In this document: positions 3,876-37,460 of the stretch, one piece after another
Layout: the number at the start of each line of letters is the position of its first letter
Position numbering within the stretch: position 1 is the first letter of the stretch
Virus record (IMG/VR): IMGVR_UViG_3300043399_001247
Coordinates: 1-50,703 of that record
Length of the DNA: 50,703 bases
From: a virus
Direction: 5' to 3' (one strand)
Program-made: the position numbers and the translations under genes
Notes under the pieces: model-generated
What the model was told of the DNA's origin: nothing
What the model saw: the letters and a program-made list of their open reading frames with translations, nothing else
Databases searched by the model: none

Positions 3876-4075
3876 ACCCGACCAACAGACTGCGATTTGT
3901 GCGGCGCAAAGAGGTTGTCGGGCAAGAAGGCGACACAACTATCACGCGTCGGGTGCGCATCCTGCAACAGTGGTGGGCGCCACAAAGAAGTTTTTCCGAC
4001 GGCTATGGCTATCAGACTGTCGAATTGCACGGCGGCGAATGGCGCGACATCCCGCTAGAGGTGGAGCAAGAATGA
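3872..4075 (+). CDS. Small hypothetical protein between exonuclease and polymerase
   Basis: 67 residues, starting with GTG 3872 in overlap with the exonuclease stop and ending in ATGA overlap with the polymerase start at 4072. It is basic at the N terminus (RLRFVRRKE) with a Trp pair (QQWW) and a beta-rich C terminus. No family is recognised. Translational coupling on both sides supports a real gene. A role as a small partner of the replisome is possible but is only an inference from position. Confidence 0.6.
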   Translation: MNPTNRLRFVRRKEVVGQEGDTTITRRVRILQQWWAPQRSFSDGYGYQTVELHGGEWRDIPLEVEQE

Positions 4076-6891
4076 CCCTCCCGCAGCTGCGTTGCCGCAC
4101 CGAGTTTTCATTCCGGCAGGCCTTCGGGCCGGTGTCCCGGGTGGCGGCGGCCGCTGCCGCGCTGGGCGCTCCGGCGGCGGGGATCGTGGACGGTTCGACC
4201 TGGGGTCACGTCCGGTGGGCCAAGGCGGCCGCAAAAGAAGGCTTCAAGCCACTTTTCGGCACCGAGCTCACCGCTCCCTTCCCCGACGGCCGCAAGCCCC
4301 AGGCGTGGGCGTTGGCTGAAGATACGCGTTCTTTCTACCGCTGGTCCACGGCGCTACGCCAGAAAGAGGCCGATCCGCTGGCGCTCCTGGCGGACGCGAA
4401 GGGCGTTGTGCGTTTTTCTGGCCCGGGGCTGACGGACCCGGCGCTGTTCGATTACGTGGACCTCAACCCCAACTCCCCGGTGGAGCAGCGCGCGGCGGTC
4501 GCCCTGGCCCGCCGGACGGGCAAGCCGCTGGTCGTCACCAGCGCCAACAGCTACCCCCGCCGCGAGGACTACGACGCCTTCATGGCGATTGGCGGGCGCG
4601 AATCGACCACGCCGCAGCACCTGCTCAGCGCGGCCGAGCTGCGGCAACACATCCGGGTGCTGGACGACGCCGCGTGGGAGCAGGCCGTGCGCAACACTCA
4701 CGAGGTGGCCGAGCGGTGCGCGGGCGCGCTGCCGACCGCCCCGATCATTCAGGTCGCGGGCGACCTCCGCGCGCTGGCGGAAGCGGGGCGGCAGCGACGC
4801 TTGGCGCTCGGACACTTGCCCTCCTGGCCCGAGGAATACGCCGCGCGGCTGGAGCGGGAGCTGGTGGCGATCGAGCAGAAGGCGTTCGAGAGCTACTTCA
4901 TTGTCGTGGCCGACCTGATCGAGTGGGCCAAGCACCGCATGCTCGTCGGCCCCGGGCGCGGCTCGTCGGCGGGGTCGCTGCTGTGTTACTTGCTGGGCAT
5001 CACCGAGGTCGACCCAATCCCGCACGGGCTGCTGTTCGAACGGTTCATTGACCTGACCCGCAAGGACTTGCCCGACATCGACATCGACTTCAGCGACGTG
5101 AAGCGCGAGCAGTGCTTCGAATACTTGGCCGACAAGTATGGCCGCAACTGCGTGGCACGGATCGGCAACGTGAACACCTTGAAGCCGCGCTCCGTGATGG
5201 CCGAGGTGTGCAAGCGCTTCGGCATCCCCGACAAGGAGCGGTTCGACCTGCTCAACGTGCTGATTGAATACAGCTCGGGCGACAGCCGGTATGGCAAGGG
5301 GCTCGAAGACACCCTCAACAACACCGAGACGGGCAAGAAGTTCATGGCGCGGCACCCCAAGGCCGTGGTCATGAGCGAGGTGGAAAACCACGCCTGGCAC
5401 ACCGGGGTGCACGCCGCCGGGGTGATCGTGTGCAACGTGCCGGTGGACGAGTTCTGCACCATCGGCCCGGACGGCGTGGCGCACATCGACAAGCCCGACA
5501 GCGAATATCTCAACCTCCTGAAGATCGACGCGCTGGGGCTGCGCACCCTGGGCGTGATCGAGGACAGCGGCTGCGTGACCGCCGAGCAGCTCTACGGGCT
5601 CAAGTTGGACGACCCGGCGGTGTTGGACATATTCAACCAGCGCAAGTACACCGGCATCTTCCAGTTCGAGGGGCAATCCCAGCGCACCATCTCCGCGCAG
5701 GTGCACGTGGACAACTTCCGCACGGTGGACCACCTCACGGCGCTGGCGCGCCCCGGGCCGCTCGGCGGCGGCGCCACGGGCAAGTACATTGCGCGCAAGG
5801 CGGGAGCCGAACCCGTGAGCTACACGCACCCCGCCCTCCAGGAGCTCCTGCAGGACACCTACGGGGTGGTGCTCTACCAGGAACAGGTGATGCGCATCGT
5901 GCGCGACCTGGGCAAGTTCTCCTGGGACGAGACGACCGTGATCCGCAAGGCGATGTCTGGCCGCAAGGGCAAGGAGTTCTTCGACCAGCAAGGCGCAAAG
6001 TTCATCGCTGGCGCGGCGCAGGACGGCATCGACGAGGGCACGGCGCACGAGATCTGGAACGAGATCTGCAACTTCGGCGCGTGGGGCATGAACAAGAGCC
6101 ACACCTGCGCGTACGCGGTGATCAGCTACTGGTGCGCGTGGATGAAGGCGTACTACCCGTTGGAATACGCGGCGGCGTGCTTGCGCTCGGCCAAGGACGA
6201 CGACCAGACCATGGAGATCTTGCGCGAGATGGCCGCCGAGGGGGTGGATTACGTCGCGTTCGACCCCGAGCTCTCGGACGTGAACTGGGCCGTGCGCGAA
6301 GGGCGGCTGGTGGGCGGGTTCCTGAACTTGGTGGGCTTCGGCCCCTCGAAGGCGGTCGCCGCCGTCGAAGCGCGCCGCCTGGGCAAGATGGACGACAAGC
6401 TCCGCAAGCGTATCGCCGAGGCGCACGTGAAGTTCGACGACCTCTACCCAATCAGCCGCAAGTACGCCGCGTGGTACGCAGACCCTGCGGCGCACGGTTG
6501 CCGTGTTGGCTCCGTCATCTACAAGGCAGACGCTATGCCCGACCGGGGTGACATCCTGTTCATCGGCAAGGTCGTCAAGAAGGAGCTCCGCGACGAAAAT
6601 GAGACCGTGCGCGTGGCGCGGCGGGACGGACGCCGCCTGACGGGGCCGACGATCTTCGCGGACTTTTTCTGCAAGGACGACACCGGCATCCCGATCATCT
6701 GCCGCGTGGACCGCAAGGACTTCGAACCCCTGGGGCGCATTGCAATGGAGCGGCTCGTCGCCGAGCAGGACGTGATCCTGGTGCGGGGTCGCAAGATACC
6801 GAATTTCGGGATGATCAAGGTCGAGCGCATGAAGGTGCTCAACAGAGAGGAGAGCTTGCGTGAGGAAGCCGGAACAACGCTTGTGGGATAG
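4072..6891 (+). CDS. DNA polymerase III alpha-like (C-family) replicative polymerase
   Basis: 939 residues, shorter than bacterial DnaE (about 1,160). The palm has the signature PDIDIDF at residues 334-340 with the metal-binding aspartates, preceded by GPGRGSSAGSLLCYLLGI. The third acidic residue is expected at Asp486 in LLKIDALGLRTL. Finger-domain motifs RPGPLGGG and VLYQEQVMRI and the NFGAWGMNKSHTCAYA segment follow, then a helix-hairpin-like region and an OB-like C-terminal part. The N-terminal PHP domain (residues 1-200) is reduced and lacks the usual metal histidines, so it is probably inactive. That agrees with the separate exonuclease gene upstream. ATG 4072 is chosen for its overlap with the previous stop. 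Confidence 0.93.
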   Translation: MTLPQLRCRTEFSFRQAFGPVSRVAAAAAALGAPAAGIVDGSTWGHVRWAKAAAKEGFKPLFGTELTAPFPDGRKPQAWALAEDTRSFYRWSTALRQKEADPLALLADAKGVVRFSGPGLTDPALFDYVDLNPNSPVEQRAAVALARRTGKPLVVTSANSYPRREDYDAFMAIGGRESTTPQHLLSAAELRQHIRVLDDAAWEQAVRNTHEVAERCAGALPTAPIIQVAGDLRALAEAGRQRRLALGHLPSWPEEYAARLERELVAIEQKAFESYFIVVADLIEWAKHRMLVGPGRGSSAGSLLCYLLGITEVDPIPHGLLFERFIDLTRKDLPDIDIDFSDVKREQCFEYLADKYGRNCVARIGNVNTLKPRSVMAEVCKRFGIPDKERFDLLNVLIEYSSGDSRYGKGLEDTLNNTETGKKFMARHPKAVVMSEVENHAWHTGVHAAGVIVCNVPVDEFCTIGPDGVAHIDKPDSEYLNLLKIDALGLRTLGVIEDSGCVTAEQLYGLKLDDPAVLDIFNQRKYTGIFQFEGQSQRTISAQVHVDNFRTVDHLTALARPGPLGGGATGKYIARKAGAEPVSYTHPALQELLQDTYGVVLYQEQVMRIVRDLGKFSWDETTVIRKAMSGRKGKEFFDQQGAKFIAGAAQDGIDEGTAHEIWNEICNFGAWGMNKSHTCAYAVISYWCAWMKAYYPLEYAAACLRSAKDDDQTMEILREMAAEGVDYVAFDPELSDVNWAVREGRLVGGFLNLVGFGPSKAVAAVEARRLGKMDDKLRKRIAEAHVKFDDLYPISRKYAAWYADPAAHGCRVGSVIYKADAMPDRGDILFIGKVVKKELRDENETVRVARRDGRRLTGPTIFADFFCKDDTGIPIICRVDRKDFEPLGRIAMERLVAEQDVILVRGRKIPNFGMIKVERMKVLNREESLREEAGTTLVG

Positions 6892-25276: not shown

Positions 25277-25310
25277 TGATTTTAAATTGCAAATTGCTTA
25301 TTTAAAATCA
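25277..25310. repeat. Perfect AT-rich inverted repeat at the DGR/lysis boundary
   Basis: TGATTTTAAAT at 25277-25287 and its exact complement ATTTAAAATCA at 25300-25310, with a 12-nt loop. It is nearly pure A/T in a GC-rich genome. It lies across the stop codon of the gene at 25298, exactly between the DGR-linked genes and the lysis genes. It could be a transcription stop, a protein-binding site or a cassette edge. Confidence 0.6.
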
Positions 25311-25546
25311 TTCTTGGAATAGCCAAATCGCTCAATTGTTGACAAGTCTTCTACATCCTGCCAAATCGGATCAAGCGTCGGACCTTCGTATCCCGGTTGT
25401 CCATAGCCCTCGGGGTACACCTGAACGTTTTGTTTGCGCGTCATAGAGCCCTTAAGTTGGGCCATGAAGGTTTCATGTTCAGGCGTGCCAGCGATAGAGT
25501 CCAAGTCTTCACGCGTGTTAATGACTGTTTTAGAAAGTGATGCCAT
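25298..25546 (-). CDS. Small protein coupled to the DGR reverse transcriptase
   Basis: 82 residues, ATG 25546, overlapping the end of the reverse transcriptase gene by 17 bp. The sequence runs KTVINTREDLDSIAGTPEHE, FMAQLKGSMTRKQNVQVYPE, YEGPTLDPIWQDVEDLSTIE. This resembles small proteins found beside phage tail fibre genes, with no known function. It is less GC-rich than the virion genes, like the reverse transcriptase, so it may travel with the DGR. A role in fibre assembly or in the DGR is possible but unproven. Confidence 0.65.
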   Translation of the reverse strand: MASLSKTVINTREDLDSIAGTPEHETFMAQLKGSMTRKQNVQVYPEGYGQPGYEGPTLDPIWQDVEDLSTIERFGYSKNDFK

Positions 25547-26513
25547 AACGTTTCTCCATCCATTGAATCAGATTGTGTGAATCTGCCCACTGCGCGTGCC
25601 CAGACCACGCGGCGGCAAACTTTTGCAGCCCCTGCACGTCGCCGTGATGCACAAAGTTGGCAACTTTGCGTTTTGCTCGCAACACCGAATTTTTACGAAG
25701 CAGCTTGTGCGTCGGCCAGATTCGATAGCCTAGAAAATTAACACCCCGCTGCGTTGGCGAAATTTGCCACTTGCCAATGCGTAGCTTCAGGCGCTCCATT
25801 GAAAAATCATTGAGACGCAGAAAGCTGTCCATCAATTGATGTCGATTATCGCCTAGCACAACGATATCGTCCATGTACCGCGCCCAGTGCCGATGGCCTA
25901 AATCGAAATGCACAAACCGGTCGGCGGCGTTGCCGTAGACATTGGCAAACAGCTGGCTTGTCAGACTGCCAATTGGTATACCTTTGCCTTCAACAGGAAT
26001 GATCTCTCGCAGGATTGCAAGCGTCTTGGAGCAGTCAATCTTTTTGTCGATCATGGAGTGCAAGACAGCACGATCCACGCTGGGAAAGAACTTGGAATAA
26101 TCAGTCTTCAGGAAATACTTGGCCTCCGTGTATCGGAGCTTTGCCTGCACAAAGCGCACGCCCGCATGGGTGCCTAAGCCCACGCGGCAAGCAAATGTTT
26201 GAGGCAGCAGGCTGCGCTCGAAAATGGGTGCCACCACGTTGCAAAGCGCGTGCTGCACAAGACGGTCTTTGAAGTCCAGTGCCGAAATTAGCCTGGGCTT
26301 TGGCTCGTAGACCGTGAACTGCCGATAGCTGCCAATGCGATAGCCGCCGTCTTGCAACTCTTGCTGCACGCGCAGCAGATTAGCCTCTGCGTATTCTTTG
26401 AACTCCAAGTAGCCAAACGTCTGCTTCTTTCCGCTTGAGGTCTTTTGATAAGCAAGCCGCAGGTTGTCCATGTCGGCAATGGAGCCGATCAGATTGCGAT
26501 GCTTCTTGCCCAT
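25530..26513 (-). CDS. DGR reverse transcriptase
   Basis: 327 residues. The palm contains KTDYSKFFPSVD with Asp138, the box IGSLTSQLFANVYGN at 181-195 (the G-x-x-x-SQ form of DGR and group II-like enzymes) and YMDD at 213-216 with the two catalytic aspartates. Fingers motifs include RLISALDFKDRLVQHAL near 74-90. It should copy the template RNA into cDNA while misincorporating at adenines, so new sequence is moved into the variable repeat. ATG 26513 begins after a 151-bp spacer from the template repeat. The same frame is open up to 27134 but runs through the template repeat and the Avd gene, so a longer protein is unlikely. No strong ribosome site is visible before 26513, so the start is somewhat uncertain. 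Confidence 0.93.
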   Translation of the reverse strand: MGKKHRNLIGSIADMDNLRLAYQKTSSGKKQTFGYLEFKEYAEANLLRVQQELQDGGYRIGSYRQFTVYEPKPRLISALDFKDRLVQHALCNVVAPIFERSLLPQTFACRVGLGTHAGVRFVQAKLRYTEAKYFLKTDYSKFFPSVDRAVLHSMIDKKIDCSKTLAILREIIPVEGKGIPIGSLTSQLFANVYGNAADRFVHFDLGHRHWARYMDDIVVLGDNRHQLMDSFLRLNDFSMERLKLRIGKWQISPTQRGVNFLGYRIWPTHKLLRKNSVLRAKRKVANFVHHGDVQGLQKFAAAWSGHAQWADSHNLIQWMEKRYGITF

Positions 26514-26664
26514 AAAAAAGTCGGCCGCGCTTTTGGATTTCCTACTAAGCGTTCTGCCGAACCGCGTGATGTATTTCCCGAAGGAGGATAAGACTGGCTG
26601 ACCACACTTTGATTGGCCTGCCCGCGTCGCCGTGGCAAACGTGGAGCGATAAAGTGGTGATGTC
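26514..26664 (-). ncRNA. TR-RT spacer, probable part of the DGR RNA
   Basis: 151 bp between the template repeat and the reverse transcriptase start, with no credible gene. In the studied Bordetella element the RNA downstream of TR is needed for priming and reverse transcription, and the spacer length here is similar. No protein or promoter signal was seen. Confidence 0.5.
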
Positions 26665-26785
26665 GTCACAGGCGAAGCGCGACCCGATGTTGTTGTTCGA
26701 GTTCGACGCAGCGTTGTTCCAGTTCGAGCATCGAGAACCGGAGTTTGCACCGTTGTTCCAGTTGCCGCCAAGGAGGACCGCATTT
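26665..26785 (-). repeat. DGR template repeat (TR)
   Basis: 121 bp read on the minus strand. It aligns without gaps to VR (27201-27321), with 111 identities. In the adhesin's reading frame it holds eleven AAC codons, in groups around NWNN, SNWNN and SNSNNN. AAC turned into NNC can give 15 amino acids and never a stop codon. TR begins 9 bp after the Avd stop codon and should be transcribed as an RNA template rather than translated. Confidence 0.95.
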
Positions 26786-26794
26786 TGACCCAGC

Positions 26795-27160
26795 CTATCC
26801 CTGCTTTTGCCTGCGCTTGATCCAGGCTCCGACCATCGCGCCAACCTCTGCGATCAGCACTTGTGCTGTTTGGAGTTGGTGCGCGGTCATTGCTCGGATT
26901 GAGAGCAGGAATCGCATCCAGAATCGCAAATGAGCAAGCGCCGCATCCGCGATGTAAATCTTTGAGACTTGATTGGATTTTCCCGCTTGAAAGAAAAGGT
27001 CTGGAACACCTAGCAGGCACTCCAGAAACATCTCTCGCGCCACCCCATGCTTGCGCGGCATCGACTGGGCGATGGGGTACAAGTACGCGATCACGCGCTC
27101 GTACTTTTCCACGATGACCATTTGGTCGTAGCATGTGGTGGCGTCTTTGGCGGGTTCCAT
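26795..27160 (-). CDS. avd: Accessory variability determinant (Avd-like)
   Basis: 121 residues, all helical, about the size of the Bordetella Avd. Two family blocks are visible: YERVIAYLYPIAQSMPRKHG near residue 20, and a C-terminal run with LRFWMRFLLSIRAMTAHQLQ followed by GAMVGAWIKRRQKQG. Avd proteins form a basic five-subunit barrel of four-helix bundles that binds the reverse transcriptase and template RNA. The lysine/arginine-rich tail fits. ATG 27160 is preferred because it leaves the homing hairpin untranslated. A TTG at 27190 would add ten residues encoded by the hairpin itself and lacks a clear ribosome site. Confidence 0.88.
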   Translation of the reverse strand: MEPAKDATTCYDQMVIVEKYERVIAYLYPIAQSMPRKHGVAREMFLECLLGVPDLFFQAGKSNQVSKIYIADAALAHLRFWMRFLLSIRAMTAHQLQTAQVLIAEVGAMVGAWIKRRQKQG

Positions 27161-27166
27161 CTTATC

Positions 27167-27182
27167 GGGCGCTTTCGCGCCC
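27167..27182 (-). promoter_or_regulatory. DGR homing-site hairpin/cruciform with GAAA tetraloop
   Basis: Minus strand GGGCGC-GAAA-GCGCCC, a perfect 6-bp GC stem, beginning immediately after the stop codon of the variable gene and 18 bp beyond the end of VR. In the Bordetella phage DGR a GC-rich inverted repeat with a GRNA-type tetraloop at this place is needed for efficient target recognition. I see no similar structure directly after TR, which would fit its role in marking the recipient copy. Confidence 0.8.
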
Positions 27183-28601
27183 TCAATCAAGACTCAGGTG
27201 GTCACAGGCGAAGCGCGACCCGATGTTGCTGAGCGAGTTCGACGCAGCGTTGTCCCAGACCGAGCATCGAGAACCGGAGTTCGCACCGCTGGTCCAGCTG
27301 CCGCCAAGGAGGACCGCATTTGGCGCGTTGTACTCGCTGCCCCGGCCTTCGGTGTTGGCGTTCCACGCAGCCGATGCAAACGGGCCGCCCCGCTCCTGGC
27401 CCCAAATCCACAGCACGCCCGCAGCCTGAATCACGCCCCACTTGGAGGTGTAGGCCGCATTGAGAATTGTGCTGCCCTGGTCGGTGCCGATGCTAGACGC
27501 CTCAGTTGTGCCGTAGGCGGCAGACATGAACTCTTGCTGGGTCGGGCAGCGCTTACCGAATGCGGTAGCCAACTCCATCGCCTCAAACCACGTGTAGCTG
27601 CCGTAGGTGGTGGAGCCGTTACCGCCAAACAGCGTCGGCACCTTGGGTGGGCTGGAGCCGTCGGCCATCGTCACGTTGTACTTGGAGGAGCCGTTGGTGA
27701 TGGCATCCACGCCGGTCAGGTAGATGTCCACCCAGAAGCCGCCAGCGACCAGGGTCATGCCACGCGGGTCAGAGCAAGACGGACGCCATTTCAAATCCCA
27801 GAAGCTGTACTCATTGATCTGCGCCGTAGTGTTGCCGCCAGATTGAGCCGTGGCATTGCCACCAGGCGCGTAATGGAAACCACCGACCTTGCGAGCATTA
27901 GCCGTAGGTGGCGAGGTGTGGTTGCTGGTTGCCTCTAGCGTGCCGTCTGTCTTCGCCCAGATGGCGTAGTCAGTGCCCGCCGAGAGAGACGGCATCGTGA
28001 TGCTGGCCCCACTGGCGATGGTCTTCATTTCGCCATTGACCTCGACATACAGAATGGACGACGTGGTCGCAGTGCCATTGCCCGTCTTTGTCCACGCGAC
28101 AATGGTCGAGTCTGCTTTTGTAAACAGACCTCGGTTGTTTGCTGCATTAAACGCTTGAACATCTGTGCCAATTGCAAGCCCTAAGTTGGTACGAGCATTG
28201 GCCGCAGTGCCAGCGCCGGTGCCCCCGTTGGCGACGGCCACCGTCCCCGTCACGTTGGCCGCAGTCCCTGTCGTGTTCTGATTCAGCGTTGGGACGTCGG
28301 CGGCTTGGATCGCCGACATCGCCACGTTGCTGCCGTTGCCGCGCAGGTATTGGCCGGAGGTGGTCGCCCCGGCGAGCGCGTTGATTGCGGCTTGTTGCGT
28401 GGTCTGCCCGGTGCCGCCCGCGCTGATCGGGGTGGTCTTCCAAGCGAGCACCTGCACCGAGCCGCTCGAATCCTTGTAGAAGAGCTTGCCGTCGGCGGTG
28501 TTGATGGCCAACTCGCCGTCGAGCAAGTTGCCCGCAGTCGGGGCGGCAGCAGGCGTAGCCGACTTGTAGAGTTGAATGGGCGTGTAGCCAGTTTGTGCCA
28601 T
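27183..28601 (-). CDS. DGR variable protein, Mtd-like receptor-binding protein
   Basis: 472 residues. The N terminus (IQLYKSATPAAAPTAGNLLD then GELAINTADGKLFYKDSSG) is a tail-attachment domain seen in Mtd-type and other fibre proteins. Residues 57-150 carry fibre repeats (SAGGTGQTTQQAAINALAG; VANGGTGAGTAANARTNLG). From about residue 270 a C-type-lectin/formylglycine-enzyme-like fold begins (DPRGMTLVAGGFWVDIYLTG). It ends with the variable repeat at residues 428-467, which keeps the frame GGxWxxGxxxGxRC and IGSRF. Seven residues differ from the template (435, 437, 438, 448, 450, 457, 458). The protein should sit at the fibre tip and bind the host receptor. Confidence 0.93.
   Translation of the reverse strand: MAQTGYTPIQLYKSATPAAAPTAGNLLDGELAINTADGKLFYKDSSGSVQVLAWKTTPISAGGTGQTTQQAAINALAGATTSGQYLRGNGSNVAMSAIQAADVPTLNQNTTGTAANVTGTVAVANGGTGAGTAANARTNLGLAIGTDVQAFNAANNRGLFTKADSTIVAWTKTGNGTATTSSILYVEVNGEMKTIASGASITMPSLSAGTDYAIWAKTDGTLEATSNHTSPPTANARKVGGFHYAPGGNATAQSGGNTTAQINEYSFWDLKWRPSCSDPRGMTLVAGGFWVDIYLTGVDAITNGSSKYNVTMADGSSPPKVPTLFGGNGSTTYGSYTWFEAMELATAFGKRCPTQQEFMSAAYGTTEASSIGTDQGSTILNAAYTSKWGVIQAAGVLWIWGQERGGPFASAAWNANTEGRGSEYNAPNAVLLGGSWTSGANSGSRCSVWDNAASNSLSNIGSRFACDHLSLD
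27201..27321 (-). repeat. DGR variable repeat (VR)
   Basis: 121 bp forming codons 428-467 of the adhesin. It differs from TR at ten bases, all at template adenines (29 adenines are available; none of the other 92 bases differs). Seven AAC codons became AGC, ACC, AGC, GTC, GAC, CTC and AGC, and one GCA became GCG without changing alanine. The last 27 bases before the end (IGSRFACD) are identical in TR and VR and form the GC-rich homing initiation site. Confidence 0.95.
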
Positions 28602-36768: not shown

Positions 36769-37053
36769 TCAGATCTCCATCCAGTCTTCAGCGAGCATGT
36801 CGGATTGGCTGGCGAGCCATCCGGGCAGATAAGTGTTCTGTGCGGTCCACATGTCGATGTGGGGCAAGATCTTCATTTCGCTCAAGCCGCGCGACTCCAG
36901 AAAGTCGGCGCTGATGGGGCTGTTGGGGCGCAAGTCTTCTTTGCGGACAGCATAGCCTCCCGCCATGAGCAGGAACATGCCCTTGCCATTCCAACCTTCG
37001 CGGGCAACCTTCTTGCCGCTCTTGAGCGCGGCGATTGCTTCACCAAAATTCAT
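36769..37053 (-). CDS. DUF2829 family protein
   Basis: 94 residues. The pattern MNFGEAIAALKSGKKVAREG, WNGKGMFLLMAGGYAV and the end YLPGWLASQSDMLAEDWMEI is that of DUF2829 (PF11195-like), small proteins common in phages and prophages with an unknown role. The ATG at 37053 is chosen because AGGAG lies 6-7 bp upstream; the ATG at 37059 is too close to it. The presence of a non-structural gene inside the head cluster is usual in these phages. Confidence 0.85.
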   Translation of the reverse strand: MNFGEAIAALKSGKKVAREGWNGKGMFLLMAGGYAVRKEDLRPNSPISADFLESRGLSEMKILPHIDMWTAQNTYLPGWLASQSDMLAEDWMEI

Positions 37054-37064
37054 TGTCATCTCCT

Positions 37065-37460
37065 TCAGATGAATGCTCGGATCGCCAACGGGTCGCCCGT
37101 CACGCGGCCGATGATGTCGAGGTCGTTGAAGATGCAAAACAGCGCCTCTTCTCCATCCTTGTTTGGAACAGACCAGCGGTCGCCGCCGTACTTGGCTACG
37201 CGGACGTACTCACCCGGGGCGCACCAGCTTCCTTCAGGCCACGAATCCATCGTGTTCCGGTTCTTGAACGCCAGCGGGCCAACAGAGATGACCTTGGCGA
37301 TCTGGGTGTTCCAACGCTCGGTGTCTCGAGAGCCGTTGTCGATGATGATGCCGGAAGCAGTTTTGGTCTTTGGAGTTCTGATTTGCACCAGAACGCGCGA
37401 TCCAAACGGCTGGATGCCGGGATCAATTTCCGGAAATGCTTCCTTCAGTTCTTCGCTCAT
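37065..37460 (-). CDS. GroES-like co-chaperonin
   Basis: 131 residues. The core PFGSRVLVQIRTPKTKTASG, a mobile-loop-like IIIDNGSRDTERWNTQIAKV and VISVGPLAFKNRN, then PGEYVRVAKYGGDRW, follow the GroES beta barrel (about 95 residues) with short extensions. It probably helps the host GroEL fold the capsid protein, as phage co-chaperonins do. The loop and length differ from host GroES, so it is a phage version. It is encoded between an HNH endonuclease and the scaffold region. Confidence 0.8.
   Translation of the reverse strand: MSEELKEAFPEIDPGIQPFGSRVLVQIRTPKTKTASGIIIDNGSRDTERWNTQIAKVISVGPLAFKNRNTMDSWPEGSWCAPGEYVRVAKYGGDRWSVPNKDGEEALFCIFNDLDIIGRVTGDPLAIRAFI

Follow-up and report, generated by a model that had tools for sequence, protein, structure and literature searches.

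A complete BPP-1-type diversity-generating retroelement on a phage backbone unrelated to Bordetella phages, with a possible leader frame into its reverse transcriptase gene

Overview

The minus strand of a single uncultivated virus record of 50,703 bases (IMGVR_UViG_3300043399_001247), hereafter called the window, carries a complete and probably functional diversity-generating retroelement (DGR) of the BPP-1 type at positions 25530-28601, a reading to which we assign a probability of about 0.94. All coordinates are those of the whole record. In the Bordetella phage BPP-1, the DGR machinery rewrites the receptor-binding protein of the phage. The present element is of this known kind and adds a member to it, now on a backbone unrelated to the Bordetella phages. 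Together with about 70 relatives, it indicates a cassette that circulates between phages and grafts a receptor-binding tip onto their resident tail fibres. In addition, many elements of this type share a stop-free frame that leads from inside avd, through the template, to the reverse transcriptase (RT) gene.

Anatomy of the retroelement

The preliminary description of this DNA, made from the letters alone, had reported all of the DGR parts in the right order and orientation, including an RT with YMDD, an Avd-like protein, a template repeat (TR) and a variable repeat (VR). We located each of them directly on the minus strand, in the order mtd(VR)-hairpin-avd-TR-RT, and each component passes a homology or a statistical test. 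The described extent, 25530-28601, contains all of these parts, but the cassette runs past its end into a bbp4-like gene (25298-25546, minus strand, 82 residues), a homologue of BPP-1 bbp4 that overlaps the RT stop by 17 nt.

The RT (25530-26513, minus strand, 327 residues, ATG at 26513) contains the YMDD and IGSLTSQ motifs. It is 68% identical to BPP-1 Brt at the amino acid level over its full length, and it matches PDB entry 8ub7, a record named “Reverse transcriptase”, with 508 bits (E = 3e-151). In the RT tree, the window RT lies inside the BPP-1 clade, and the comparison with DGR RTs that had been proposed as a check thus groups it with Brt inside the DGR family. The avd gene (26795-27160, minus strand) starts at the ATG at 27160, while a longer version from the TTG at 27190 is possible. 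Its product matches Pfam bAvd (3.9e-29) and NCBIfam DivGenRetAVD, the latter with 106.6 bits (cut-off 80).

The interval between TR and RT holds the core DGR RNA (26520-26647, minus strand), which scores 103.8 bits with the Rfam model RF03022 Phage_DGR (gathering score 50). Its structure is conserved: in an independent alignment of 35 relatives, two-sided changes occur in 16 of the 29 consensus pairs. Folding of the TR tail and the spacer as a single sequence was uninformative (z = 0.25); the question of RNA structure was settled by the covariance model.

The mtd-like gene (27183-28601, minus strand) encodes a putative receptor-binding tail protein of 472 residues. Residues 158-471 are homologous to BPP-1 Mtd and match the solved Mtd structures (PDB 1yu4 and others) with E values of about 1e-104 to 5e-104. 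By this match, the VR target is predicted to be a protein of the C-type lectin fold. The earlier naming of the product as an Mtd-like adhesin thus holds for residues 158-471, but not for the N-terminus, which is a tail-fibre module; the BPP-1 homology begins only at about residue 158. The role in receptor binding, and any consequence for the host range, would follow from the same homology.

The VR (about 27198-27321, minus strand) forms the 3′ end of mtd, and repeat comparison pairs it with the TR (about 26662-26785, minus strand) as a 124-nt direct repeat with 91% identity and a separation of 536 nt. In the 121-nt core (26785-26665), all 10 mismatches fall on TR adenines, which make up only 29 of the 121 positions (hypergeometric p = 1.6e-7). 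The next mismatch past the core, at 26664 (G in TR, C in VR), marks the boundary, where the two initiation sites are expected to differ. In the VR frame, the TR contains 13 AAY codons (12 AAC and one AAT), each of which can give 15 amino acids and never a stop. Across all 50,703 bases of the record, our search found this one TR and this one VR, and no additional VR elsewhere.

The invariant 3′ end of VR (27201-27224, minus strand), ATCGGGTCGCGCTTCGCCTGTGAC, resembles the initiation of mutagenic homing (IMH) site, as identified by comparison with BPP-1. Directly after the mtd stop codon lies the hairpin GGGCGC-GAAA-GCGCCC (27167-27182, minus strand), with a 6-bp stem and a GRNA-type loop. Described DGR hairpins have a GC-rich stem of 7-10 bp (PMC3240598) and a GRNA loop, and lie at 4-34 bp from VR. 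The GAAA loop and the distance from VR fit, and the stem is one base pair under this range. The BPP-1 stem has 8 bp; 6 bp is the commonest stem length in the clade of the window.

By analogy with BPP-1, in a transcript containing avd, TR and the spacer, the spacer would be the site at which RT and Avd bind. The RT would then copy TR into cDNA, with errors opposite the adenines, and at the IMH and hairpin site this cDNA would take the place of VR in the 3′ end of mtd. As a result, the Mtd tail protein would change in its C-type-lectin tip at up to 13 positions, corresponding to the AAY (Asn) codons of TR.

Activity in the family

Is the DGR family active in nature? We collected 80 related IMG/VR loci via the RT. 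Nearly all of those with sufficient upstream sequence carry a TR/VR pair with mismatches on adenines, and such adenine-biased pairs are present in about 70 related loci. Among closely related contigs, we directly observed that VR is enriched in changes at TR adenines relative to the rest of the aligned DNA in nine of 11 comparisons, while TR itself has zero or one change; in the other two pairs, VR is unchanged. In the pair L075/L052, VR differs at 13 positions, all of them TR adenines, as compared to none in TR and five elsewhere in 2.8 kb. The 16 VR differences between L060 and L062 likewise all lie at TR adenines, as do 19 of the 22 between L022 and L023. The VR of near-identical relatives therefore changes at the adenine positions of a fixed TR, which indicates that the DGR family is active in nature. 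A VR that stays constant across propagations and related phages, while positions unrelated to TR vary, had been named beforehand as the pattern that would speak against a DGR, and the L075/L052 pair contradicts it. Since the data contain no near-identical sister of the window, we infer the activity of its own copy from homology and from these relatives.

Two other readings of the locus were considered. The RT could be that of a group II intron, a retron or an antiphage system, with the repeat being incidental, and the NCBIfam models of group II introns, retrons and DRTs do match it distantly. All of these matches are far under the curated cut-offs, however, and the full-length match is BPP-1 Brt, with avd, the TR/VR pair and the core RNA alongside. 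This reading, refuted by the RT tree and the full-length Brt match, is extremely improbable. The locus could also be a decayed DGR, in which the parts are still recognisable, diversification is lost, and the VR differences date from an earlier, active state. Such remnants exist among the relatives: one contig (L125) retains mtd and bbp4, separated only by fragments that resemble a hairpin arm and the 3′ end of the RT gene, another (L109) combines two copies of mtd with an avd-like remnant, and a Pandoraea nosoerga contig (L085) retains RT and bbp4 without avd, mtd or a TR/VR pair. In the window, in contrast, RT, avd and mtd are all uninterrupted and of full length, the RT retains YMDD, and the IMH, the hairpin and the core RNA are all present. 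Moreover, drift after inactivation would add non-adenine mismatches, and the TR/VR core has none. We thus regard decay as improbable, and a complete, probably functional DGR as the preferred reading.

Mobility of the cassette

As judged by sequence comparison, the conserved block extends from the middle of mtd through the bbp4-like gene 3′ of the RT, and it lies on unrelated phage backbones, fused to the local tail-fibre N-termini. In the window, this cassette (25323-28130) has a GC content of 56%, as compared to 64% for the remaining record, which would fit a foreign origin. The closest RT to that of the window, with 86% identity, belongs to L004 and is its sister on the RT tree (support 100/99). 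The similarity between the two records extends from window position 28130, inside mtd, to about 25323, and in the 13 kb of L004 that were compared, the cassette is all that matches the window. The sister relationship of the RTs, in the face of this lack of any other match, indicates that the cassette moved between phages. L005 shares both the cassette and the tail-gene backbone with the window, and its RT is less similar to the window RT than that of L004.

Residues 1-157 of the window Mtd represent a backbone-specific tail-fibre N-terminus, which is common to DGR-less relatives of the window phage. Most of the 44 contigs with the upstream tail gene of the window have this N-terminus (about residues 1-53) or a part of it, and no DGR was seen in any of the 44. 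The N-terminal module therefore belongs to the backbone, and the receptor-binding half of mtd was grafted, together with the DGR, onto the resident fibre. Grafting of this type is a known event. A 2012 publication describes it for the kappa prophage of Vibrio cholerae HE-09, whose resident kappa tail-fibre gene is fused with a BPP-1-type block of 2.9 kb (PMC3521204). That cassette is about as long as the window block (about 2.9 and 2.8 kb, respectively), whereas its phage backbone is a different one.

The window and BPP-1 share the gene order and orientation, the RT, Avd, the C-terminal two thirds of Mtd, the size of TR and VR, the IMH-like end, the GAAA hairpin, the core RNA, the downstream bbp4 and the open frame in avd. 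In contrast, outside the cassette the two have no similarity above E = 1e-3, save one short weak match, and the N-terminus of the window Mtd is the 157-residue tail-fibre module instead. A BPP-1-type DGR, with an RT 74% identical to that of the window, is also present on a contig of 582 kb (L084), which bears the label of an Akkermansiaceae metagenome-assembled genome and may reflect a prophage or a binning error.

A stop-free frame leading into the RT gene

In the window, the +2 frame of avd is open from inside the gene through TR and the spacer (26514-27134, minus strand) and is in frame with the RT. The whole open frame spans 27134-25530, or 534 codons up to the RT stop. The same open frame from avd through TR and the spacer into RT exists in BPP-1 and many relatives, and a search of the open-access literature found no description of it.

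In order to gauge the lack of stops, synonymous codons were shuffled within each avd gene, so that the protein and the codon usage were kept. In a first set of 37 lineages, with RT genes less than 50% identical at four-fold sites, the +2 frame contains 48 stops against 138 expected (z = -12), and 22 genes are stop-free, as compared to about 1.5 expected. The +1 frame is not depleted (211 stops against 207 expected), and the corresponding stop ratios for the RT and mtd controls are 0.84 and 0.98. The depletion in the +2 frame is restricted to TAA, TAG and TGA, while TGG, TGC and TTA are undepleted. Across TR and the spacer, the continuing frame has 24 stops and the other frames have 104 and 70, with 81 expected.

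Because the idea of a leader frame arose from the first set, we assembled a hold-out set of 22 new lineages, from three further scans and from loci already collected. Seven of these have a stop-free +2 frame, against 0.14 expected. The overall stop ratio of the hold-out set is 0.78 (RT control, 0.91), and the signal resides in the genes with zero stops; the overall ratio is weaker because the lineages split into two classes. Class A comprises 37 of the 59 synonymously diverged lineages, including the window and BPP-1, and has eight stops in the +2 frame against 124 expected, whereas class B comprises the other 22, with 150 stops against 155 expected; since the classes were cut by stop count, this contrast is partly by construction, although the link to the RT start is not. 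In class A, the frame is fused with RT in 24 lineages and ends between -10 and +30 of the RT start in nine, several with ATGA or TAATG. In class B, it ends near the RT start in three. On the RT tree, the open-frame trait changes about 10 times, at least four of them on starred branches, and a tree-corrected test of the open frame against the RT start, with four independent pairs only, is not significant. The data do not support this frame as a universal DGR trait, as 22 of the 59 lineages are without it and the overall hold-out ratio is just moderately lower than the RT control.

Does the frame encode a protein? Conservation of the +2 peptide does not exceed that of alternative frames in the control genes, and the synonymous sites of avd diverge as fast as those of RT. 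A second conserved protein was thus rejected, and it is therefore the openness of the frame that is kept. Furthermore, in lineages where the frame is out of phase with the RT, it usually still stops at the RT start codon, which argues for the delivery of ribosomes rather than for an extension of the RT. The stop-free frame and its ends at the RT start suggest that RT translation may be coupled to ribosomes crossing the template. A missing Shine-Dalgarno sequence at the RT was considered as an explanation: the median energy is weak at the RT start (-3.4 kcal/mol) as compared to bbp4 (-6.4), but it is weak at avd as well (-1.9). The leader would run from avd through TR and the structured spacer, and would either fuse with RT or end at its start, and one transcript would be either translated into RT or folded as the template ribonucleoprotein. 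We therefore propose, tentatively and at just short of an even chance, that BPP-1-type DGRs keep a hidden leader frame, that RT synthesis depends on ribosomes crossing the template, and that this may act as a self-limiting switch. If the leader is translated, it would bear on the unanswered question of how a DGR balances the two uses of one transcript, RT synthesis and template RNA, and the design of engineered TRs would have to respect it.

Alternatively, the stop-free frame may be a passive by-product of the codon context of avd and not of translation, a reading that we consider quite plausible, if somewhat below evens. It agrees with the control-level peptide conservation, with the matching synonymous divergence of avd and RT, with the closed frame of class B and with the non-significant tree-corrected test. 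In addition, a published plasmid-expressed donor, in which TR positions 23-96 are replaced by 30 bp, still homes (PMC3240598). By our own arithmetic, a net 44 nt are lost in this donor and the phase is shifted, which speaks against an absolute need for the frame. However, when synonymous codons of the same avd genes are shuffled, the open lineages have the 124 stops given above, where eight are seen. Against it also stand the undepleted +1 frame and the undepleted TGG, TGC and TTA, the RT and mtd control ratios, the seven zero-stop genes of the hold-out set, and the stops at the RT start codon in the out-of-phase lineages. In the annotation of BPP-1 (NC_005357, 1756-3407), the numbering passes from bbp5 (brt) to bbp7 (avd) with no bbp6 annotated, and this interval holds the stop-free frame.

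The bbp4-like gene 3′ of the RT

The bbp4-like gene, or a longer form with the same N-terminus, follows the RT in nearly all of the clade loci. It also occurs immediately after Mtd-like fibre genes, without an intervening avd or RT, in five records (L093, L116, L146, L157 and L125). These records may be fragments, and none of them yielded an RT. A DGR-specific component was thus rejected, and the gene is more likely a partner of the fibre than a part of the DGR. Its position leads us to guess at a role in fibre assembly. The gene has no Pfam or PHROG family, and neither PDB nor BFVD contains a significant match to the fold predicted for its product (pLDDT 84, pTM 0.55).

Several rearrangements were noted around this gene. 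By eye, the stretches at the mtd-bbp4 junction of L125 look as if a DGR had been deleted. In L144 and L154, an ORF with the look of an HNH endonuclease, also by eye, occupies the place of the DGR, flanked by mtd and bbp4. Both VR-like ends still differ strongly from each other at DGR-type positions, although these short contigs have no RT. In L109, L114 and L115, which have no RT, two mtd-like genes lie in tandem, separated by a hairpin and an avd-like remnant. In the Pandoraea nosoerga contig, the RT and the following genes are 98.5% identical to BPP-1.

Other genes of the record

Elsewhere in the window, the minus strand encodes a Tad2-like protein (36769-37137; Pfam PF11195, Thoeris anti-defence 2 domain, 5.5e-25) and a Chaperonin-10 (GroES)-like protein (37065-37460; Pfam Cpn10, 3.6e-8). 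On the plus strand, 438-1268 matches a FabG-like reductase (PHROG 3142), and 3970-6891 encodes a phage DNA polymerase that resembles records named “DNA polymerase III alpha” and is 49% identical to those of Luteibacter and Xanthomonas phages.
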